Below, piece after piece: positions 1 through 12,625 of a stretch of DNA of 26,177 bases (the first letter of the stretch is position 1; every line of letters starts with the position of its first letter). Position numbers and translations under genes: made by a program. The notes under the pieces were generated by a model. That model had not been told where the DNA came from. It did not search any database and saw only the letters and a program-made list of their open reading frames with translations. This DNA comes from a virus, in IMG/VR virus record IMGVR_UViG_3300017756_000091, positions 1 to 26,177 of that record. The stretch is one strand, 5' to 3'.

Positions 1-43
1 AGAGATATTTTTATTAGTAACACTTCAAATGAGGAGAAGTACA

Positions 44-643
44 ATGACAAACCAAATCGCAACAATCTCTGCTGAAATCAACACTCTTGAAGCTGAAGGC
101 TTTGCCCTTGCCAAAGAGTGGAAGGCTATCAGCAAAGCTGACAAAGCACGTTTCACCAAGTCCACGAAAGCCGATGGCTTTGATACGAGACTTGGCAAGC
201 TGATGTTTGCTTTAAAGCAAGAGGCAAATGGTCGTATCACTAGCCAAAGGCTAAAGGATTGCGGCATCAATACCATTGATAAGCGTAGAAGAAGTGAGGC
301 TTTGTGGTTCGTTGAAAACGAAACTGAGGCAAGAGCCTTTGTTCAAGCCTCAAAGAAAGGCTTTACATCCCTGACAGCTTTACAAGCTGCTATGAAGAAA
401 GCTGACAAATCAGCTAAAGCTGATGAACAGGCTGAGACACATGAACAGCCAGAGGCTGATGCAGAGTCCAATGTTGGACTAGACAGCGAAGCTGAAACAA
501 AACAGTCTGAGCCTTTATCACCTAGTGATATTGCTTTGGAAGCACTTATCCAGTGCGAAACAAATGGCATAGCCATTAAGGATTTTATGCTTGCTCTTAA
601 AGAGCAGTTAGAAATGCTTGACGAAACACAGGCAGTAGCATAA
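44..643 (+). CDS. Hypothetical phage protein, 199 aa, acidic middle linker
   Basis: I do not recognise the family. Residues 1-115 look like a compact alpha-helical domain with many Lys and Arg. Residues about 116-160 form a low-complexity Ala/Glu/Asp/Lys linker, and the C-terminal 40 residues are again helical. An in-frame ATG lies at 29, but GAGGAG at 30-35 is well placed for the ATG at 44, so I start there. The linker carries one copy of the 16-bp palindrome (465-480), read as S-N-V-G-L. Nothing upstream is visible because the window begins here. The product is probably a soluble early phage protein, but no function can be assigned. Confidence 0.75.
   Translation: MTNQIATISAEINTLEAEGFALAKEWKAISKADKARFTKSTKADGFDTRLGKLMFALKQEANGRITSQRLKDCGINTIDKRRRSEALWFVENETEARAFVQASKKGFTSLTALQAAMKKADKSAKADEQAETHEQPEADAESNVGLDSEAETKQSEPLSPSDIALEALIQCETNGIAIKDFMLALKEQLEMLDETQAVA
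465..480. repeat. 16-bp palindrome copy 1 (intragenic)
   Basis: AGTCCAATGTTGGACT has 7-bp inverted arms AGTCCAA and TTGGACT around a 2-bp centre. The same 16-mer recurs at 1148, 2151 and 3158 with only the centre changing. This copy lies inside the first gene, about 200 bp upstream of the next start codon. A dimeric DNA-binding protein site is the simplest reading. Confidence 0.8.
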
Positions 644-679
644 GCTACTGTCTCACTCTTGATAATCGGAGATTATATC

Positions 680-859
680 ATGTTAGCAAAACTGTTTCTC
701 ATCCTAATAGGATGCATCACGTTTTCATTAGGCATTTGCCTAATTGCCCTATCACTCATTTACACAGTAAATCATGACACTGTGTATGCCTTGATTGCAA
801 TGGCAACGGGCTTTGGCGGCATTATGTATGGAATACATATTTGTGAGGAATCAGCATAA
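680..859 (+). CDS. Small membrane protein, two TM segments, 59 aa
   Basis: The protein has two hydrophobic stretches, about residues 2-27 and 36-54, separated by a short polar turn (TVNHDT), so it is a likely two-pass inner-membrane protein. The ATG at 680 is preceded by CGGAG at 668-672 and is preferred over the upstream in-frame ATG at 659. Its stop codon shares one base with the next start (TAATG), which suggests coupled translation. No family was recognised. Early small membrane proteins in phages often alter the host envelope or exclude other phages, but that is only a general possibility here. Confidence 0.65.
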   Translation: MLAKLFLILIGCITFSLGICLIALSLIYTVNHDTVYALIAMATGFGGIMYGIHICEESA

Positions 860-1083
860 TGGCAAAGCGTCATATCATACCGCTTGGCAAGCATAAGCCT
901 GTCAGGTCATCATGGGCATCTATGGATACACTAGCCTATAGCCGTAGCTATGAGCCTGAAACACGTCCAGAATACCAGTGCTTTGTCACTGGTCAGCAGT
1001 CAGCTATGATTGCCTCATATGAGAAGCACAAGAAAGTGCTTGACAAGCGTGAGGCATTGGCTATTCTGGATTCACTGCTTTAG
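859..1083 (+). CDS. Small basic hypothetical protein, 74 aa
   Basis: This is a basic, soluble protein of 74 aa with Arg/Lys-rich N-terminal third and a helical C-terminus ending in leucines. No motif was recognised. It starts at the ATG that overlaps the previous stop as TAATG. It is followed directly by the long hairpin and palindrome of the 1084-1183 intergenic stretch, so it closes the first small operon-like group. Confidence 0.65.
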   Translation: MAKRHIIPLGKHKPVRSSWASMDTLAYSRSYEPETRPEYQCFVTGQQSAMIASYEKHKKVLDKREALAILDSLL

Positions 1084-1140
1084 TGTGTAACGTAATATAT
1101 ACTGATACTTTAGTGAAAGTATATATTACTTATACATCAC
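1083..1140 (+). promoter_or_regulatory. Long hairpin element A (ACTTT-AGTG-AAAGT apex)
   Basis: The apical hairpin is ACTTT (1107-1111), loop AGTG, AAAGT (1116-1120). Below it, after a one-sided 6-nt bulge (ACTGAT, 1101-1106), GTAATATAT (1092-1100) pairs with ATATATTAC (1121-1129). Weaker pairing continues outward to about 1083 and 1140. The same apex recurs at 2111-2124 with a different outer stem that also pairs. No T-run follows, so a simple terminator is unlikely. It is followed 8 nt later by palindrome copy 2, then by a ribosome binding site and a start codon. Confidence 0.55.
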
Positions 1141-1147
1141 TTAACTA

Positions 1148-1163
1148 AGTCCAATGTTGGACT
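1148..1163. repeat. 16-bp palindrome copy 2 (5' of the 1184 gene)
   Basis: AGTCCAATGTTGGACT, identical to copy 1, ends 20 bp before the ATG at 1184. It sits between hairpin A and the ribosome binding site (ACGGAG), a position suited to an operator or a translational control site. Confidence 0.8.
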
Positions 1164-1183
1164 AAACATTAACGGAGTTAAAC

Positions 1184-1450
1184 ATGGTTATTGCTACTTA
1201 TGAAGATATGTGTCAGGCTTTCAGTGATGCGTTCAAAGCGTATCATGGTGTTCGTCCATACGGCTATGGCAATAGCTTCACATATGATGAGTTAGGTGAG
1301 AAAATCCTGAAGCTGGAAAAGTGGGCTGAAGAGGATGCCCAGCGTGATGCACAGGAAGAAACACGTGCTGTGGCAAGTGTAATGGCTGTAGGCTGTCCTG
1401 ATGAGCAGACAGCACAGCGTTGGTTAAATGATGCATGGGAGATTTACTAA
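1184..1450 (+). CDS. Hypothetical acidic phage protein, 88 aa
   Basis: This is a predominantly helical, acidic protein of 88 aa with no known motif. A short stretch, AYHGVRPYGY (residues about 18-27), loosely resembles QYHGVKMGRY in the protein encoded at 3205, so the two may be distantly related. The start is supported by GGAG about 9 nt upstream. It is the first gene after the hairpin A plus palindrome leader and shares a TAATG junction with the next gene. Confidence 0.65.
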   Translation: MVIATYEDMCQAFSDAFKAYHGVRPYGYGNSFTYDELGEKILKLEKWAEEDAQRDAQEETRAVASVMAVGCPDEQTAQRWLNDAWEIY

Positions 1451-2073
1451 TGGCTATCGAGTTCAATATGCAAATTGCAGTGAAAAACATTATCGCTATC
1501 CGCAAGAAGGCAAAGCCTGAAGATGTGGCAAATGGCATTGCATGGTATGCTGAAGCATATGAAGAGTGTCGTATCATGGCTGATAGGTTCAGATTGCCTA
1601 TCAATGTGGTTACTGGCGTTGTGGCGGCACTGTCACCAAACAATCGTTGGGAATTGAATTTGCGTAATGCAAAGGATTTGATTGATGCCTATCTTGTTGG
1701 CGGCACAGTGGATGATGTATCAGTATGCACTTACAGTGCCATGAAGAAAAAAGCATGGTCTATTCTTGAGGCTATGCCAGACCATGATGAAACTAAGCGT
1801 ATGCTTAATGGCAAGAAGATTGTCTGTTTCTACGAAAACATCATGGGCGATGACACTTGCACCATTGATGGACACGCTAGAAACATTGCTTACAATGAAC
1901 GTGTTGTTCTTACTGATGGAAAGACAAGCATTGGTGCTGTAGAATACCGCAATCTGCAAGAGGCATATCGCATTGCCGCTAGTCGTTGCCGTGTCAATGG
2001 CAGACGTTTGAAGGCATACGAATTGCAAGCAATTACATGGGTCACTTGGAGAAAGCAACACGGCATTGCTTAA
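1450..2073 (+). CDS. Conserved phage protein, possibly HhH-GPD glycosylase-like, 207 aa
   Basis: The protein has the layout seen in a widespread uncharacterised phage family: a helical N-terminus, an ALSPNNRWELNLRNA block (about residues 60-74), a KKIVCFYENIMG block (about 122-133) and a CTIDGHARNIA block (about 138-148). The order of a helical bundle, a short G-K-linked turn and an Asp-containing D-G-H-A motif recalls the HhH-GPD DNA glycosylase fold, in which a catalytic Asp follows the hairpin. This is inference from motif layout only. The ATG at 1450 overlaps the previous stop (TAATG) and has GGGAGA upstream; the in-frame ATG at 1435 is less likely. A role in base excision or DNA modification is possible but unproven. 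Confidence 0.7.
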   Translation: MAIEFNMQIAVKNIIAIRKKAKPEDVANGIAWYAEAYEECRIMADRFRLPINVVTGVVAALSPNNRWELNLRNAKDLIDAYLVGGTVDDVSVCTYSAMKKKAWSILEAMPDHDETKRMLNGKKIVCFYENIMGDDTCTIDGHARNIAYNERVVLTDGKTSIGAVEYRNLQEAYRIAASRCRVNGRRLKAYELQAITWVTWRKQHGIA

Positions 2074-2081
2074 ACCCTTAC

Positions 2082-2144
2082 GTATATCTTATGTGATAAA
2101 CACACTTGAAACTTTAGTGAAAGTGTTTTATCACTTAGATATAC
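2082..2144 (+). promoter_or_regulatory. Long hairpin element B (same apex as element A)
   Basis: The apex ACTTT (2111-2115), AGTG, AAAGT (2120-2124) is identical to that of element A. The outer stems are GTGATAAA (2093-2100) with TTTATCAC (2127-2134), and GTATATCT (2082-2089) with AGATATAC (2137-2144). The 5' side again carries an unpaired segment just before the apex (CTTGAA here, CTGAT in A). Outer stem bases differ between the two copies yet still pair, which favours a selected structure. Palindrome copy 3 follows 6 nt later. Confidence 0.6.
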
Positions 2145-2150
2145 TAGACA

Positions 2151-2166
2151 AGTCCAACGTTGGACT
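2151..2166. repeat. 16-bp palindrome copy 3 (5' of the 2183 gene)
   Basis: AGTCCAACGTTGGACT is a perfect palindrome because its centre is CG. It ends 16 bp before the ATG at 2183 and directly precedes the ribosome binding site GGAG. Copies 2, 3 and 4 are spaced about 1 kb apart (1003 and 1007 bp). Confidence 0.8.
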
Positions 2167-2182
2167 AACTGGAGATTTGAAA

Positions 2183-2362
2183 ATGACTGAATTATTCTTG
2201 GTTTTATACTCACCCAAAGATGAAACATTATGGGAGTGCTATTCTACAGTGCATGACCTGTCTGTAGCGGCAGATATATCGCTAGAGTTAAACACCAAAG
2301 GCTTCCGTACTAATGTGCAGTCTGTGTTACTGGATGAGTATGGGCAGGTGACGGATGATTAA
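2183..2362 (+). CDS. Small hypothetical protein, 59 aa
   Basis: This acidic 59-aa protein appears to form beta strands at its N-terminus (ELFLVLYSP) followed by a helix, ending in TDD. I do not recognise it. The reading frame is open further upstream through the palindrome, but GGAG at 2171-2174 fits the ATG at 2183. It ends with an 8-nt ATGATTAA overlap onto the next gene, the first of a long series of such junctions. Confidence 0.6.
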   Translation: MTELFLVLYSPKDETLWECYSTVHDLSVAADISLELNTKGFRTNVQSVLLDEYGQVTDD

Positions 2363-2507
2363 ACGTATTAATCCCATAGCCAAAGTAATGGCTGAGAGTA
2401 GACGCAGGACTAGCACAAAGGTAGTGCCTGACAAGAAGAAGTACAATCGCAAGAAGGATAAAGACAATGCAAATAAAAATCGAAAAGATGAAGTCACTAA
2501 AGACTAA
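2355..2507 (+). CDS. Very basic mini-protein, 50 aa
   Basis: This 50-aa protein is dominated by Lys and Arg, especially after residue 15, and is probably largely disordered or nucleic-acid binding. It begins at an ATG that overlaps the previous stop by 8 nt (ATGATTAA). No clear Shine-Dalgarno precedes it beyond GACGGA, so translation is probably coupled to the upstream gene. No family was recognised. The neighbouring reading frame (2467-2598) is also Lys/Arg-rich. Confidence 0.45.
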   Translation: MIKRINPIAKVMAESRRRTSTKVVPDKKKYNRKKDKDNANKNRKDEVTKD

Positions 2508-2598
2508 GCCCCGCAAAGCAAAGCGTGATGATTGGAAGCGTAACCGCAAGGTGTTGCGTAATGCAAAGCGTGAGACACAGGAGAGATGGTATGCCTAA
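2467..2598 (+). CDS. Very basic mini-protein, 43 aa
   Basis: This is a Lys/Arg-rich 43-aa frame preceded by AAGGA about 8 nt upstream. It overlaps the previous mini-gene by 41 nt in a different frame, which is unusual in this otherwise neatly joined region. It ends with an 8-nt ATGCCTAA overlap onto the next gene, the junction pattern shared by its neighbours, and that supports it being real. No function can be assigned; nucleic-acid binding is plausible from charge alone. Confidence 0.45.
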   Translation: MQIKIEKMKSLKTKPRKAKRDDWKRNRKVLRNAKRETQERWYA

Positions 2599-2800
2599 AC
2601 ATGACTTTACACCAGCTAAAACACCAGAATATCTTGAAAGTTTTATTGCGTTCTTGGATAACAAGGTTAAGAAAGCTTCCAACAGGGAAGAATTTGAGCG
2701 TATTGCTAGTCTCAAAAGGGATGTGCAGATAGAATACATAGCAAGTTTACACATTAATACTGCATGGTTAAGAGTTAAGCAAGAAAGGCTAAGAGGATGA
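2591..2800 (+). CDS. Hypothetical helical protein, 69 aa
   Basis: This is a 69-aa helical, charged protein with no known motif. The ATG at 2591 has GGAGAG upstream and overlaps the previous stop by 8 nt. Upstream in-frame start codons from 2525 are rejected because they lie inside the preceding gene without a good ribosome binding site. It ends at an ATGA overlap with the next gene. Confidence 0.6.
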   Translation: MPKHDFTPAKTPEYLESFIAFLDNKVKKASNREEFERIASLKRDVQIEYIASLHINTAWLRVKQERLRG

Positions 2801-3189
2801 GAAAAGTACGTATGTATTGGAATTTGCACAAAAAGATATGGTCTGTGCAAGACTGTAAGACAGGGCGTGTTACAGACCATGTGACAGCACTGACACTGGC
2901 AGATGCCAAGTTTGTAGTGCGTCCTGCTGGTCGTGCCAAAGTATTGCGTGAAGGCAAGAAGAATGTTCATGCCTTTGCAGTAGGACACATTAGCTTAATG
3001 AATGGTGTTGCCACTTGTATAACTGGCAGACCAGTTACATATAACCCATACAAGAATGATACATTTGTATTTGCTGACACAGATGAACCCGTCACAGATA
3101 CTCATGCTATCTCATTATTCATACATGATGGGAAACCCAAAGTGTATGCAATCCCCAAGTCCAACATTGGACTAACTAACCAACAGTAA
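2797..3189 (+). CDS. Hypothetical phage protein, 130 aa
   Basis: The first 60 residues have a beta-rich pattern (RKVRMYWNLHKKIWSVQD then TGRVTDHVTALTLADAKFVV), followed by a Lys/Arg-rich turn (GRAKVLREGKKNVHAFAVG). This style is common in small uncharacterised podovirus early proteins. Its last codons contain palindrome copy 4, read as S-N-I-G-L, the same frame as in the 44-643 gene. AGAGG precedes the ATG. The C-terminal tail LTNQQ may be an accident of hosting the regulatory site. Confidence 0.65.
   Translation: MRKVRMYWNLHKKIWSVQDCKTGRVTDHVTALTLADAKFVVRPAGRAKVLREGKKNVHAFAVGHISLMNGVATCITGRPVTYNPYKNDTFVFADTDEPVTDTHAISLFIHDGKPKVYAIPKSNIGLTNQQ
3158..3173. repeat. 16-bp palindrome copy 4 (5' of the 3205 gene)
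   Basis: AGTCCAACATTGGACT ends 31 bp before the ATG at 3205 and overlaps the last codons of the upstream gene. Like copies 2 and 3 it is followed by ACTAA and lies just upstream of a gene start, but no ACTTTAGTGAAAGT hairpin accompanies it. Confidence 0.8.
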
Positions 3190-3204
3190 AAAGGAGACTT
3201 TATT

Positions 3205-3582
3205 ATGACTATTCAAACTATCACATTTCACCAGCGTTCAACAGGTATGACAGGTCAGGTGCTTGCATCACCAGAGATTGAGAAGAAACTTGCTAAAGTA
3301 GAAGCATTGTATGAGCAGTATCATGGCGTGAAGATGGGACGTTACAAGTTCTATCGTCAGGCTCTTGAGTGGACACGTGAGACTAAGCGTGATGGTGGTG
3401 GGTACATCCAGTACACAGCCGAAGCAGTAGCAGGTTTTATCTTGGACAAGATGCACAAGGAACTAAGCAAGGGTGTGCGTAGGAAGAAGCGTAATCCTAT
3501 CTCACTTGAGTTTGGTATGTATGAGATTAGCAACATTCGTGACCTTGCCCGTGGCAAGCGTGGCAGAAAGGCGGTAGCATAA
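3205..3582 (+). CDS. Hypothetical phage protein, 125 aa
   Basis: This is a basic helical protein of 125 aa. Around residues 28-50 it carries LAKVEALYEQYHGVKMGRYK, loosely similar to part of the 1184 gene product, and its C-terminus is rich in Arg, Lys and Gly. A very good ribosome binding site (AAAGGAG) precedes the ATG. No family was recognised. It is the first gene after palindrome copy 4 and joins the next gene by TAATG. Confidence 0.65.
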   Translation: MTIQTITFHQRSTGMTGQVLASPEIEKKLAKVEALYEQYHGVKMGRYKFYRQALEWTRETKRDGGGYIQYTAEAVAGFILDKMHKELSKGVRRKKRNPISLEFGMYEISNIRDLARGKRGRKAVA

Positions 3583-3761
3583 TGTATTGGGAAGTCGGTA
3601 TCAAAATTGGTAATGAGAGTGGGCAGGTAACTGTCCACCCTCAAGCCCTTGAACAGAGCGAGTGGGGTAATGCAATAGAACATGCTATGGAAATGGCGCA
3701 GTCATTGTATCCGAAACACAAGATTGAGTTTGATTATGTAAAGGAGTATGACAATGACTGA
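3582..3761 (+). CDS. Small hypothetical protein, 59 aa
   Basis: This 59-aa protein has a beta-like start (MYWEVGIKIG), a short helix (IEHAMEMAQSLYP) and a final beta segment with an acidic end (DYVKEYDND). This alternation resembles small single-domain alpha/beta phage proteins, but I do not recognise the family. It starts at a TAATG junction and ends with an 8-nt ATGACTGA overlap onto the next gene, whose ribosome binding site AAGGAG lies within it. Confidence 0.6.
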   Translation: MYWEVGIKIGNESGQVTVHPQALEQSEWGNAIEHAMEMAQSLYPKHKIEFDYVKEYDND

Positions 3762-4038
3762 CACTTATGACAGCGGCTTTGACCTTGTGTTATCAGACTA
3801 TGAACGCAGTATGCTGACCGCCCACTACAGGGCTGGGTTCTTGCAGGAGTTCATGGAAGATAAAGAAGATGACCAATGGTATGGTTATCAAATAGGTGAC
3901 AGGATGTTTGACTTTAACATCTGGCGTGATGACATTACACAGGAGATTGTCTGCACAGTTTATGAGTGTGATTGGATTAATGATAATTGGCAGACTAACT
4001 GCCACCATAGTTGGACATTGACAGAGGAGTTAGAATAA
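3754..4038 (+). CDS. Acidic hypothetical protein, 94 aa
   Basis: This is an acidic, Trp/Tyr-rich 94-aa protein (for example DDQWYGYQIGDR and CDWINDNWQTNC). Strong negative charge and small size are compatible with a DNA-mimic or inhibitor type early protein, but nothing specific supports that. AAGGAG at 3741-3746 is 7 nt before the ATG at 3754, which is preferred to the ATG at 3748. It joins the next gene by TAATG. Confidence 0.6.
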   Translation: MTDTYDSGFDLVLSDYERSMLTAHYRAGFLQEFMEDKEDDQWYGYQIGDRMFDFNIWRDDITQEIVCTVYECDWINDNWQTNCHHSWTLTEELE

Positions 4039-5439: not shown

Positions 5440-5578
5440 ACTATTGAGAAGGCTAGGACTAAAGGATGACTATGGTTACTGTGATACCAGCATTGTTGGG
5501 TTCATTGTAATCTGGTCTGCGTTTGGTTACATGATATATGTAGCCATAGGTGGGATAATAGAAAGGATAGTAGGATGA
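5432..5578 (+). CDS. Single-pass membrane mini-protein, 48 aa
   Basis: A basic N-terminus (MDKLLRRLGLKDD) is followed by one hydrophobic segment (about residues 21-44), giving a single-pass membrane protein with a probable cytoplasmic N-terminus. It overlaps the previous gene by 8 nt (ATGGATAA) and the next by 4 nt (ATGA). No clear ribosome binding site is present, so coupling to the upstream gene is likely. Function unknown. Confidence 0.5.
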   Translation: MDKLLRRLGLKDDYGYCDTSIVGFIVIWSAFGYMIYVAIGGIIERIVG

Positions 5579-6105
5579 ATAGATTTCTGATTGAGCATCA
5601 CCCTGATGCAATCGCCAAGTCACTGTGTGACAAGCACATTGTGAAGATGCCATTGGAAGAGGCACAGATGCTATGCACAAGCATATGGCATCATGCCCCT
5701 GAGTATGCAGAGGCACATGAGTTGTACAAGCCTGTGCATCAGAAGCATCCATGTACTCTGTGGGCAATGGAGACTAGGGCAAACTTTGTGTTTGCTTTCA
5801 ACCTGTACACATCAATGCTCTGCGAGTACCATCACAGGTATGACAAGTGGCATGGTGCAGGTAATCCTAGTACGACTAACAAGGATGCAAGACCCCAGCA
5901 TATACTGGCGGCTCGTCACTTCATACCTGATGGACAGCTAACGCCACACCCACAGTGCTTCAGTGGGCTTGACCACCTAAAGACGGACGAGCAGTGGCCT
6001 ATAGAAGCGTATCGTGCGTTCTACAAAGTAGACAAGGTAGCATTTGCACGATGGGATAAAGGCGGCAGAACAATACCACATTGGATGGAAGGAGAAGTAG
6101 CATGA
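5575..6105 (+). CDS. Conserved phage protein with CDKHIVKM-EEAQML signature, 176 aa
   Basis: The N-terminal signature (residues 18-32: CDKHIVKMPLEEAQM) and the later HPCTLWAMETRANF and LCEYHHRY blocks mark a protein family found widely in cyanophages and other marine phages. Some members carry a pyrimidine-dimer glycosylase label, possibly because the D-x-H motif recalls T4 endonuclease V, but I regard that as unproven. Many conserved His, Trp and Asp residues suggest an enzyme or metal binder. AAGGATAGTAGG precedes the ATGA junction, and the next gene follows by another ATGA overlap. Confidence 0.65.
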   Translation: MNRFLIEHHPDAIAKSLCDKHIVKMPLEEAQMLCTSIWHHAPEYAEAHELYKPVHQKHPCTLWAMETRANFVFAFNLYTSMLCEYHHRYDKWHGAGNPSTTNKDARPQHILAARHFIPDGQLTPHPQCFSGLDHLKTDEQWPIEAYRAFYKVDKVAFARWDKGGRTIPHWMEGEVA

Positions 6106-6486: not shown

Positions 6487-7335
6487 ATGCCGTTTGATAT
6501 TCCAATGCAGGACATGATTCCTGAGAACCTTGACTTTACTGTAGAGTTTGAGCCTACTAAGGTGAAGGACAAGAAGTATGTAATCAATGGTGACACGGGT
6601 GATTACATTGGTGTCGTAGGTGACACATTCCAGTGTGCATCACATACGGAGTTCTTTGAGGGTGTACACAACACTGTCACTGAACATCTGGGTGAGGCTG
6701 AGTGTGAGAACATGAATATGAAGTGGCGTATTGCACGTCAGAATGCATGGGCTATGCTTGACATGACCCTGCCTGAAGTGACTGCCCGTATTGAGACAGA
6801 CAAGCACAGCACCACCATTGCACAGCGTATCATTGCTTTGCATGGTATTGATGGTAGCTGTTCTAACCAGACATTCTTTGGTGCTATTGATTTCTTCTGT
6901 ACCAATGGCATGATACGTGGTGAGCATGATAAGATACGCAGGAAGAACACTGCTAACTTCACAATGGATAGGTTCATCCGGGATTTACGTCAGGCTACAC
7001 AGTCATTCTATGCACAGTCAGAGCGTCTACAGGGCTGGGCTAACAAGCCTCTGTATGTTGGTGATGTCAAAGCTATGCTTGAGACACTGCTAAAGTCTGA
7101 CCGCATGGCAGACAAGATGTTCAGCCTATACAATCAAGAGGCGAGTGTGCGTGGACAGAATGTCTGGTCACTGTACTCTGCCTTCACTAACTATGCCAGC
7201 CACGCTGATGAACGTAATGGGTTCAACCTGCGTAACACTGGCAAAGATACAGGTGCTGTGTCCATGTTCCAACGTGAGAACAAGGTATCACAGTGGATTG
7301 AAAGCAAGCCATTTAAGGAGTTGATTGCAGCATGA
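6487..7335 (+). CDS. DUF932 family protein, 282 aa
   Basis: This matches by eye the DUF932 / phage-plasmid-like (TIGR03299-type) family: an N-terminal block with YVINGDTGDYIGVVGDTFQ (about residues 31-49), a central block with IVAL-type strands and the FFCTNGM motif (about 136-142), and an Arg/Lys-rich stretch after it. The family is common in phages and plasmids but has no established biochemical role. AAGGAGATAAGAT precedes the ATG. The gene opens a new block after the small early genes and overlaps the next gene by ATGA. Confidence 0.75.
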   Translation: MPFDIPMQDMIPENLDFTVEFEPTKVKDKKYVINGDTGDYIGVVGDTFQCASHTEFFEGVHNTVTEHLGEAECENMNMKWRIARQNAWAMLDMTLPEVTARIETDKHSTTIAQRIIALHGIDGSCSNQTFFGAIDFFCTNGMIRGEHDKIRRKNTANFTMDRFIRDLRQATQSFYAQSERLQGWANKPLYVGDVKAMLETLLKSDRMADKMFSLYNQEASVRGQNVWSLYSAFTNYASHADERNGFNLRNTGKDTGAVSMFQRENKVSQWIESKPFKELIAA

Positions 7336-7688
7336 CCGATGATTGGCAACCTTACACAAAGCGTTTCAATGCAGGTGATAAACCTAACACGTTAAATGGG
7401 GCGTGGTTTTTGCCACGCTTCGTTTATTGGACTGTGATGTGTTACGTTCCGTACTGGACAAAAGAGAGAAAAGGTAAGCACTGGAAGAAATACAAGCTAT
7501 ACAAGTTTAGGTATGAGCGTGGTGAGAACCCAGAGGACTATGTACATGGCATATTCAACAAGTGGGGAATACATTTAGGTGATGGAGTCTATGTTCATGA
7601 CCGCACCAGTCAGTATTACAAACTTGCAACTTATAGATTTGTAGAGGATAGTGAATTTGAAAGTTTAGATTGTGAGGAACTAAAATGA
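7332..7688 (+). CDS. Hypothetical aromatic-rich protein, 118 aa
   Basis: This 118-aa protein is rich in Trp, Tyr and Lys (WKKYKLYKFRYERG), with a moderately hydrophobic stretch near residues 25-42 (WFLPRFVYWTVMCYVPYW) that could lie on or in the membrane. I do not recognise the family. It is joined to DUF932 upstream and to the recombinase downstream by ATGA overlaps, so the three are probably translated together. Confidence 0.6.
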   Translation: MTDDWQPYTKRFNAGDKPNTLNGAWFLPRFVYWTVMCYVPYWTKERKGKHWKKYKLYKFRYERGENPEDYVHGIFNKWGIHLGDGVYVHDRTSQYYKLATYRFVEDSEFESLDCEELK

Positions 7689-8584
7689 AAACAGTAGAAG
7701 ATTTAGTATTGACATACTATTCTTCCAACGATTTCAGTATGTTGAGGGATAAGTCTAAGAAGGACTATAAGTATTTCCTCAACATATTGGTCGGTGAGTT
7801 TGGTGACGTGCCGTATGGAGAGTTGACCAGTAAGCAAGCCAAACACGCATATGAAGAATGGGTAAAGCGTGGCATCACATTTGCCAATCATGTGTGTACT
7901 GTGTCATCACTTGTGTACAGGTACGCAATGGAGATGGAGTACACCACAATCAATCCGTTTGCCAACATCAAACGTAAAGCACCTAAACAACGCAAGGTTG
8001 TGTGGACAGAGCAGGACATACAGAAGTTCCTGTCATTCTGTTATAGTGACTTTGCCTATCGTAACATTGGACTGATTGTTCACATGGCGTATGAATGGTG
8101 TCAGCGTCTGGGTGACATGAGACTATTGACATGGGATGTGCTTGATTTGGATGAGCAGAAGCTGTTTCTTGAGCAGTCAAAGCGTAGGGCAGAGGTGACA
8201 TTGCCTATCAGTGATGACCTTACAGCTATGCTGGTACAACAGAAGGATGACTTTGGCTTCCAACAGTACGTTGTTCCCCGTCCAAGACCCGCTGGTGGCG
8301 TTTATCATCCTTACAGTATAGATAGGCTGTCCAAAGCAGGTCGGCAAGCTATGAGGCTTGCAGGGCTTCCAGAGGAGTTACGTCTGATGGACTTACGTAG
8401 GACAGGCACAACCGAAATGGTTGAAGCTGGTGTCGGTATGGCACAAATCATGTCGGTTACAGGACATAGTAACCCACAGTCAGTTAAACCATACATGAAA
8501 AATACATTTGCAAGTGCGAATTATGCATTGACGACACGAGAAATGCATGATATAAGCATGGACAAGTGCCGCACAGGAGAGTGA
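7685..8584 (+). CDS. int: Tyrosine recombinase (integrase family), 299 aa
   Basis: Residues 1-90 form a SAM-like core-binding domain and 100-285 the catalytic domain. Arg141 lies in CQRLGDMRLLTW, Lys166 in EQSKRRAEVTLPI, Arg238 in RLMDLRRTG, His261 in VTGHSNPQS and the nucleophile Tyr270 in SVKPYMK. The usual box II His (HxxR) is Met235 here, an uncommon but not unknown change that need not abolish activity. The gene is transcribed with the replication block and overlaps its neighbour by ATGA. No attachment site, excisionase or repressor is visible beside it. It could integrate the phage, or resolve genome multimers. Confidence 0.85.
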   Translation: MKTVEDLVLTYYSSNDFSMLRDKSKKDYKYFLNILVGEFGDVPYGELTSKQAKHAYEEWVKRGITFANHVCTVSSLVYRYAMEMEYTTINPFANIKRKAPKQRKVVWTEQDIQKFLSFCYSDFAYRNIGLIVHMAYEWCQRLGDMRLLTWDVLDLDEQKLFLEQSKRRAEVTLPISDDLTAMLVQQKDDFGFQQYVVPRPRPAGGVYHPYSIDRLSKAGRQAMRLAGLPEELRLMDLRRTGTTEMVEAGVGMAQIMSVTGHSNPQSVKPYMKNTFASANYALTTREMHDISMDKCRTGE

Positions 8585-10586: not shown

Positions 10587-12625
10587 AGCTAACACTAGAC
10601 GTAGAGAATGTAGGACAGAAGAGGGGTGGTAAGTTACACCTTGACCCCTTTGAGCCTGACAATTCTTTGACTATGATTGGTATGCTTACCGATACAGGTG
10701 AAGAACGGCTGGTTACATTTGACCATCAGGATTGTCCACCTACCCCAAACGGACATGCTCTGGTGCAAGAGTGGTTAGATAAGGCAACAGTACTTATCAT
10801 GCACAATGCCGCCCACGATTTGATGTGGCTATGGGAGTCAGGCTTTACATATGATGGTGCAGTCTTTGACACTATGCTTGCAGAGTATGTGTTACAACGT
10901 GGCCTGAAAGAACCACTAACGCTTGAGGCATGTGCTGAACGATATGAGTTGGCTACACAGAAGCAAGACAGTCTAAAGGAACACTTGAACAGTGGTGGCA
11001 CAGCTTACAATATGAACTATCCTAAGTTGGCAGAGTACTTGTCTACTGACATACATGCTACTCAGCAACTGTCTGACAGGCAGATGTACAAACTAAATAC
11101 CCCTGATGATGCAGGGCTTATGAATAGTGTGACACTTACTAATGAAGTGTGTGTTACTCTTGCTCGTATGTATCAACGGGGATTTACTGTAGACATGACA
11201 GCTTTACAGCAAGTTCATGACGAGTTTCTACAGGAGAAGGAGACATTGACCAATGAATTACAGGCTCACGTTAGGAATCTTATGGGCGATAGCCCTATTA
11301 ATCTTAATAGTCCAGAACAACTATCTTGGGTAGTGTATGGACGTAAGGTGTTAGACAAACAGTATTGGGGCAATGCCATTGACCCTTACATGGATGATGC
11401 TGATTTCCGTAGCCTGATGTCTGCTGGTACAGAGCGTGTGTATAAGACTAAGGCAGAGCAGTGTACAGAATGTGATGGCACTGGCTACATAAGAAAGGTA
11501 AAGAAAGATGGAACACCATTTGCTAAGCCTAACAGATGTACGAATTGTAGTGGGTCTGGTTATTTGTTTGTATCTACTCAAGACTTGGCTGGACTAAAGT
11601 TCAAACCACCGTCTGCTAAGTGGGCTAGTGCTAATGGATTTAGTACAAGCAAACAGAACCTTGAGATACTAGAAGGTGCTGCCAAGTCTAAAGGACTTAC
11701 AGATGCGGTTGACTTTCTATCTAAGGTACGCAGATTGTCTGCAGTAGATACTTATCTATCATCCTTTGTTGAGGGCATACGTATGTTCACAAAGTCAGAT
11801 GGTAAGTTGCATGTACGTTTGTTACAACACCGTACATCTACAGGTAGATTTAGTGGTGCTAACCCTAACATGCAGAACATGCCACGTGGCGGTACATTCC
11901 CGGTAAAGAAGGTGTTTGTATCTAGGTTTAATGGTGGTAAGATACTTGAAGCTGATATGGCACAGCTAGAGTTTCGTACTGCCGCATTCTTATCACAAGA
12001 TGGAGTAGCAATTGAGGAAGTATCTACTGGATTTGATGTACATGCATACACCGCTAAAGTTATTACTGATGCTGGTCAACCTACGAGTAGGCAGGATGCA
12101 AAAGCGCATACGTTTGCACCACTCTACGGGGCAACTGGATACGGAAGAACACCAGCGGAAGCAGCGTACTACACACACTTCAATGACAAATACCAAGGGG
12201 TCGCAGTTTGGCATTCCCGATTGGCTAAAGAGGCTATAAACACGGGCAAGATTACCACACCATCAGGGCGTGAGTTTGCTTTCCCTGATATAGTTCGTAA
12301 GCACAACGGCAGGGTGTCTCACTTTACACAGATAAAGAACTACCCCGTGCAGTCGTTTGCTACAGCAGACATTGTACCCATTGCATTGCTTCACATTGAA
12401 CGCTTGCTAAAGGGTATGCAATCCTGTATAGTCAACACAGTGCATGATAGTATTGTTATTGACGTACACCCAGATGAAGAACAACAGGTAATTGATTTAA
12501 TCAACAAAACAAATGATGACCTACCAGATTTGATTACACTTAGATGGGGAATAAAGTTCAATGTTCCACTGTTACTAGAATCAAAAATAGGTCCGAATTG
12601 GCTTGACACTAAAGACGTTATCTGA
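10583..12625 (+). CDS. polA: Family A DNA polymerase with DnaJ-like zinc-finger insertion, 680 aa
   Basis: The 3'-5' exonuclease motifs are DVE (residues 6-8), HNAAHD (74-79) and YLSTD (152-156). The polymerase motifs are A (LEADMAQLEF, Asp458), B (Arg503, Lys507, Phe511, Tyr515) and C (HDS, His621-Asp622). Between the two parts sits CTECDGTG (from 294) and CTNCSGSG (from 319), the four-Cys DnaJ central-domain zinc pattern. A partial DnaJ domain in this place is a reported hallmark of SAR116 phage HMO-2011. The residue equivalent to E. coli Phe762 is Phe511, the state associated with virulent marine phages. The start overlaps the helicase stop by ATGA. Confidence 0.95.
   Translation: MKLTLDVENVGQKRGGKLHLDPFEPDNSLTMIGMLTDTGEERLVTFDHQDCPPTPNGHALVQEWLDKATVLIMHNAAHDLMWLWESGFTYDGAVFDTMLAEYVLQRGLKEPLTLEACAERYELATQKQDSLKEHLNSGGTAYNMNYPKLAEYLSTDIHATQQLSDRQMYKLNTPDDAGLMNSVTLTNEVCVTLARMYQRGFTVDMTALQQVHDEFLQEKETLTNELQAHVRNLMGDSPINLNSPEQLSWVVYGRKVLDKQYWGNAIDPYMDDADFRSLMSAGTERVYKTKAEQCTECDGTGYIRKVKKDGTPFAKPNRCTNCSGSGYLFVSTQDLAGLKFKPPSAKWASANGFSTSKQNLEILEGAAKSKGLTDAVDFLSKVRRLSAVDTYLSSFVEGIRMFTKSDGKLHVRLLQHRTSTGRFSGANPNMQNMPRGGTFPVKKVFVSRFNGGKILEADMAQLEFRTAAFLSQDGVAIEEVSTGFDVHAYTAKVITDAGQPTSRQDAKAHTFAPLYGATGYGRTPAEAAYYTHFNDKYQGVAVWHSRLAKEAINTGKITTPSGREFAFPDIVRKHNGRVSHFTQIKNYPVQSFATADIVPIALLHIERLLKGMQSCIVNTVHDSIVIDVHPDEEQQVIDLINKTNDDLPDLITLRWGIKFNVPLLLESKIGPNWLDTKDVI

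Follow-up and report, generated by a model that had tools for sequence, protein, structure and literature searches.

The early gene region of the virus record IMGVR_UViG_3300017756_000091 (IMG/VR; the whole stretch of 26,177 bases was analysed and is called the window here) carries a short palindrome, AGTCCAA-NN-TTGGACT, in four exact copies and nowhere else. The question raised by this locus is which protein, if any, recognises the repeated element. Comparison with related phages suggests that the palindromes are quite probably binding sites of gp01, the product of the phage's first gene, which would be a site-specific DNA-binding regulator and a repressor-type early switch.

The four copies (Table 1) have identical arms and differ only in their central bases (in order TG, TG, CG and CA), exactly as the first-pass annotation of this DNA had stated. 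Allowing up to three mismatches adds a single match, at 12555; shuffled sequences gave 1.41 on average, and five were reached in one of 100 shuffles. When repeated exact palindromes (arms of 6-8 bases, spacer of 0-8) were sought across the window without prompting, this was the sole family with at least three copies. The start codons at 1184, 2183 and 3205 follow copies 2, 3 and 4 by 20, 16 and 31 bases, as read from the sequence, and the two copies inside genes do read S-N-V-G-L (copy 1) and S-N-I-G-L (copy 4), as had been claimed. The near-equal spacing of the last three copies (1003 and 1007 bases), to which attention had also been drawn, looks like chance, because neighbouring sites within the clusters of related phages lie anywhere from 194 to 2196 bases apart; a regular 1-kb spacing was thus rejected.

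Site variants and their co-occurrence with gp01

The window belongs to an HMO-2011-type phage: its DNA polymerase shares 76% identity with the HMO-2011 enzyme across the full query, the integrase, primase, helicase and polymerase genes follow in the same order in both, and its closest DNA relatives are HMO-2011 (SAR116 host) and the roseophages CRP-1 and CRP-345, at 69-73% identity. Phages of this type are described as one of the most abundant known marine viral groups, many of them with integrases (PMC9038755). The relatives compared include (i) integrase-selected loci, the best 80 of at least 596; (ii) gp01-selected loci, drawn from the best 80 of 127 and the best 80 of 133 gp01 relatives; (iii) named isolates apart from CRP-212 and CRP-738, with bases 1-50,000 scanned for CRP-1, CRP-345 and the six isolates without repeated sites. 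Site counts in relatives require exact GTCC and GGAC and are uninformative on variation within these tetramers.

The pattern AAGTCCAANNTTGGACTAA has been found in 46 stretches of the viral collection, in most of them in several copies. CRP-1 and CRP-345 carry GTCCAAYRTTGGAC three times within the first 2.3 kb, one copy being inside gp01. HMO-2011 has no site of the window type; there, an unprompted palindrome search gave AGTCCG-NNNN-CGGACT instead. This class, GTCCGACAGCGGAC, is represented by five exact copies (AGTCCG-ACAG/CTGT-CGGACT) at 53878, 54807, 60, 1261 and 1926 of the circular genome, with homologues of these early genes alongside; the genome holds no further exact copy. Further letter classes are GTCCGATGTCGGAC and GTCCTACCTAGGAC, together with a class of unlike half-sites such as GTCCGACATAGGAC. 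Within the relatives several copies stand at matching places, their letters change in concert, and the flanks change too. Matching sites in such pairs as L195/L190 and L192/L187 have almost identical flanks, and both of their base-5 letters differ. An operator is expected to be kept while its surroundings change, and this held at matching places even as the site letters shifted. The A-class phages L109/L141, L284 and L285 carry one fully G-class site among A-class sites and are possibly recent recombinants.

The sites are also confined. The pattern GTCCRANNTYGGAC has 3-8 matches in 17 of 19 long gp01-bearing records, 12 of which measure 52-57 kb, the length of complete isolates; the remaining two records belong to other letter classes, and the reversed control pattern gave zero matches in all 19. 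Where positions were listed, the sites of long records lie mostly within about 2-5 kb of the early zone, with few strays, so that clustering was found rather than random scatter. The strays are a site within the integrase gene, present in each of G007, G008 and G012, plus one further site apiece in G008 and G015. A GTCCAAGGTTGGAC-type palindrome in the integrase gene, apart from the early cluster, is present in CRP-1 (L006) at 6868, in CRP-345 (L007) at 7079 and in G007, G008 and G012; it may be a coding coincidence or an extra site.

The presence of sites follows the presence of gp01. Among the integrase-selected loci with at least 7.8 kb upstream (n = 14), 12 have gp01 together with 4-7 sites, and the other two, L062 and L100, have neither. 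Three of nine named isolates possess both gp01 and repeated sites. The other six (CRP-2, CRP-603, CRP-207, HTVC033P, CRP-3 and CRP-235) lack both gp01 and any repeated palindrome, CRP-2 and CRP-603 containing a single GTCC-N6-GGAC each. At least one site accompanies gp01 in 95 of 96 gp01-selected loci, the exception (L231) ending 184 bases past gp01, and at least two sites were found in each of 45 further gp01-selected loci. It had been anticipated that relatives keeping the genes without the palindromes would speak against an operator. Such relatives do exist: L100 has several early genes, among them homologues of the 5575-6105 protein, g52 and g128, and no sites, but those relatives are also without gp01.

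The candidate binder and its covariation with the site

The predicted structure of gp01, modelled from 78 sequences, is all-helical, with helices at residues 46-61, 67-73, 80-91, 93-102 and 110-130; the stretch 129-157, which carries the in-gene site, is of low confidence. In this otherwise variable linker S-[N/D]-x-G is prominent where gp01 has the in-gene site, in 13 of 16 proteins, HMO-2011, L106 and L116 being without it, and residue 143 changes from N to D along with the sites in five of five near pairs. The earlier impression that the protein sequence is bent to carry the site is thus supported. The window gp01 has no PHROG match and no Pfam family at E ≤ 1. Across 16 gp01 members, 11 Pfam families were matched weakly (best E 0.0035, RNA_pol_Rpc82, one member), with no helix-turn-helix repressor family among them. 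The profile of 78 sequences found no match at E ≤ 1 among all PDB chains in a sequence test, and fold searches of the gp01 models yielded no clear PDB relative (lowest E 0.8 for the first model; best Z 4.0 for the re-examined Foldseek list). Among viral models one is similar at E < 0.001 (S4S2E1, 31% identity), followed by the weaker A0A6J5NRU3 (E 0.03).

The letter at base 5 of the site covaries with two residues of one predicted gp01 helix: T111/A115 accompanies A, and S111/K115 accompanies G. Loci were classed where at least four half-sites were available and 90% (80% for the tree described below) showed one base. At the 90% threshold all 59 loci with T111 have A. S111 together with K115 is accompanied by pure G in each of 12 loci, K111 by G in all five and V111 by A in all three. 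The remaining combinations are Q111 with T (one locus), N111 with a mixture (three) and S111 with R115, where A is joined by some hybrid half-sites (ten). Across 311 gp01 columns, an identical change in all five near pairs, which were hand-picked from the gp01 tree, occurs only at 111, 115 and the site-encoded 143.

A tree of gp01 from which the helix columns were left out (along with L172 and L223, whose gp01 is partial; 11 rows have no A/G class) needs seven class changes, six of them forced by well-supported branches. When six independent pairs were chosen at random, residue 111 changed in the expected direction in 5.8 pairs on average and in the opposite direction in none (median p 0.031); taking S111/R115 out of the G type brings the average to 6.0. 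Such a pattern is what a protein-DNA contact would predict, with the caveats of a residue chosen from the data and of gene mosaicism. Another candidate specificity motif, D79-[KR]RRR versus [PA]KQRR, was perfect in the first 16 proteins and was rejected, since L144, L178, L184 and others with D[KR]RRR are of G class. Confinement to the early zone, persistence at matching places and covarying gp01 residues together support the operator family proposed at first pass, with gp01 as the protein that would bind it.

Table 1. Sites, putative regulator and associated elements of the window
Feature	Position	Strand	Context	Basis
gp01, orphan helical protein, 199 amino acids, candidate site binder	44..643	+		Co-occurrence, covariation, model
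gp01 codons 111-115 (T-A-L-Q-A)	374..388	+		Residues 111 and 115 covary with site base 5
Site copy 1	465..480		In gp01 linker, reads E-S-N-V-G-L	Exact match; same in-gene place in many relatives
AU-rich hairpin upstream of copy 2	1090..1131	+	Apical ACTGA..GTGAAAGT	Element family
Site copy 2	1148..1163		Between AU-rich hairpin and ribosome site of 1184 gene	Exact match
AU-rich hairpin upstream of copy 3	2093..2134	+		Stem core computed, outer stem read from sequence; element family
Site copy 3	2151..2166		5 bases after TATACT of promoter-like pair (2117-2145)	Exact match
Site copy 4	3158..3173		In end of gene 2797-3189, reads K-S-N-I-G-L; 31 bases before 3205 gene start	Exact match
Tyrosine integrase	7685..8584	+	Possible temperate life style	Integrase match in 19/19 long gp01-bearing records

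The gene whose end holds copy 4 has a match to Pfam Phage_L5_gp82 (E 1.5e-34), and the early genes 1450-2073 and 6487-7335 match DUF7178 and DUF932.

Placement, proposed mechanism and rival explanations

Some sites stand behind promoter-like sequences. Of the downstream sites, 64 of 227 have an AU-rich hairpin and high promoter-like scores and 163 are without, all promoters being predicted only; in-gene sites have no such context. A sigma-70 pair score of at least 9 of 12 was reached by 35 of the 64 hairpin-bearing sites against 16 of 500 in the background, the scores being raised in part because the hairpin motif contains TTGA and resembles a -35 box. At copy 3 of the window the promoter-like pair is GTGAAA-17-TATACT. 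A consensus promoter scan of window positions 1-4000 gave 13 hits against 8.9 expected and is uninformative alone.

The hairpin is an oriented element with a covarying stem and an apical ACTTGA-N-GTGAAAGT, standing before many sites and also before some genes without a site; it is perhaps part of a promoter. All five stem pairs are formed in 99 of 123 motif matches on the gp01 strand, and none of 12 on the reverse strand exceeds three pairs, the loci being partly redundant. The pairing percentage is partly a matter of construction, as hairpins were chosen for an inverted repeat; the motif count was made without that filter. Rfam gave no match in the window at gathering thresholds.

From the sites, their places, their co-occurrence with gp01 and their covariation with its residues we infer the following mechanism. 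The small helical protein gp01, of an undescribed family, would bind as a dimer to GTCC-N6-GGAC with a mostly pyrimidine-purine centre. At sites just after a promoter-like pair or hairpin (2151 and probably 1148 in the window) initiation would be blocked. At 465, within its own gene, at 3158, in a gene end, and in relatives also where a site separates a stop codon from the ribosome site that follows, bound gp01 would hinder elongation in a stoperator-like manner. It would thereby silence the early operon, itself included, as an immunity-type repressor or an early switch, and phages with different site letters would not cross-repress. gp01 is probably the missing repressor of these integrase-bearing phages. 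More tentatively, and with the odds rather against the full proposal, gp01 could be the founder of a new phage repressor family. Such a family would have a new DNA-binding fold, a specificity determined for the most part by a pair of helix residues (T/A versus S/K) and the combined action of operator binder and directional roadblock on near-symmetric sites, and it would divide one of the most abundant phage groups of the ocean into readable immunity classes.

Several observations weigh against gp01 as the binder. The model has a mean pLDDT of 73.6, nothing in the PDB is clearly similar to it, and it shows no known fold. A gp01 prophage was not found in two scans of bacterial genomes, made by peptide pattern with limited sensitivity. 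The gp01 tree was built quickly, its deep branches are weak and it carries a long-branch warning; residue 111 was itself chosen from these data. The forward test, in which the predicted majority base was matched in 44 of 45 new loci, is weak because A was predicted for 43 of them, the 45 include near-copies of one another, and the two predictions of G gave pure G in one locus and hybrid sites only in the other (L311, S111/K115). Control proteins are comparable in at most three of the five near pairs, and two of them show one same substitution in two of two pairs. Best-column purity alone does not single out gp01 either (0.943 versus 0.941 for a control with 34 loci). Finally, the sites are oriented. 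Their centres are strand-biased in the transcribed zone, with TG 83 to CA 17 downstream and 35 to 0 in gp01, a bias not expected of a plain symmetric dimer site; it is missing upstream of gp01 (11 to 12) and in the background (161 to 159), the latter ruling out a simple mutational strand bias. Hybrid CG-centred sites likewise read GACGTT in 20 cases and AACGTC in one, L311 having GACGTT in three of three.

This orientation within the transcribed zone makes a role at the RNA level the main rival, namely that the palindrome acts as a messenger hairpin beside the ribosome site, bound by gp01 or another protein for translation control. Flanks as well as centres are oriented there, the hybrid sites keep G-U and not A-C, and many sites are suitably placed: a ribosome-site-like motif with a start codon lies within 60 nucleotides of 191 of 240 distinct downstream sites, in 139 of them 15-24 nucleotides after the site. 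A stop triplet stands at most 15 nucleotides upstream of 172 of the 191, in any frame, so that many are expected by chance. The same motif and start are near only 19 of 68 sites in gp01 and 8 of 70 upstream of it, and the sites in gp01, at gene ends and about 290 nucleotides upstream of gp01 are mostly away from a start codon. Of 234 downstream sites, 116 have no pairing at the base pair next to GTCC/GGAC, and the L224-226 class, in which both orientations are in use, has a mismatched base 5/10 pair in 7 of its 12 sites. Unlike half-sites occur in both orientations on the transcribed strand (GACATA/TATGTC and GACAGC/GCTGTC), as for a duplex site, GACAGC outnumbering GCTGTC 18 to 3. RNA operators are considered improbable. 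The orientation could mean either that the roadblock works in one direction, in the manner of L5 stoperators, or that the transcript hairpin matters too.

Alternatively, the sites may be bound by a different phage protein to which gp01 is simply linked. The early protein 5575-6105 matches a PHROG annotated as 'DNA binding protein' (its Pfam match, Pyr_excise, is below the curated cut-off). The control families neither strongly support nor exclude such a protein, being comparable in three pairs at most. It is the presence of gp01 that tracks the sites, whereas 5575-6105, g52 and g128 have homologues in the site-less L100; changes in the gp01 helix residues repeatedly coincide with changes in distant sites; and Pfam names no transcription-regulator family among ten early proteins. 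The linked-protein explanation is for these reasons held to be distinctly unlikely. Still less credit is given to partition, packaging or nucleoprotein nucleation sites with no regulatory role. Several palindromes near the gene of their supposed binder do recall ParB and parS, but many sites follow promoter-like pairs or sit between a stop triplet and a ribosome site, and no ParA- or ParB-like family occurs among the proteins scanned, which are part of those of the genome. Sites for a hijacked host regulator, favoured by the palindromic form and nothing beyond, are very improbable, as the site letters follow gp01 residues across phages.

Comparison with known repressor systems

No title or abstract opening about these sites came up in the literature search, which extended to a main-text word search of PMC9038755, PMC4981710 and PMC6918029 and had most subscription papers outside it; the word 'repressor' is absent from the main text of two papers on the HMO-2011-type group. 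gp01 is probably a previously unrecognised master switch of the early genes. This very common type of marine phage now has a candidate repressor with named sites, specificity residues and predicted immunity classes, which makes the question of lysogeny directly testable, and the immunity classes could be read from metagenomes.

Lambda-type CI repressors act on palindromic sites at early promoters, with phage-specific letters and heteroimmunity. The present system is similar in its palindromic sites at predicted early promoters, its phage-specific letters and the heteroimmunity to be expected. It differs in that gp01 has no convincing Pfam match and that sites also occur in genes and away from promoter-like pairs. 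Translational operators of the T4 type share with the sites a hairpin-capable sequence next to ribosome sites; in contrast, many sites of gp01 phages are not close to any start codon, and 7 of the 12 sites of one class have a mismatch.

The immunity repressor of cluster A mycobacteriophages such as L5 and TipsytheTRex, which has both operators and stoperators (PMC9283540, PMC6550527), offers a further comparison, as far as the system is described in these papers. The likeness lies in multiple copies of a single site and in site letters that vary between related phages along with the repressor. In the cluster A phages part of the copies are in promoters and part in short intergenic gaps, and their orientation follows transcription. 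There, however, more than 20 asymmetric 13-mers are spread genome-wide and bound by a monomer, whereas here near-palindromic 14-mers, 3-8 in most long records, lie mostly within a few early kb. In addition, gp01 has no sequence relation at E ≤ 1 to any PDB chain, the solved L5-type repressor included. As for orientation, the centre letters follow transcription downstream and in gp01 and not upstream, and the cores are palindromic. The division into promoter and non-promoter sites, with promoters predicted in the present case, would resemble that into operators and stoperators in phages of the L5 type.

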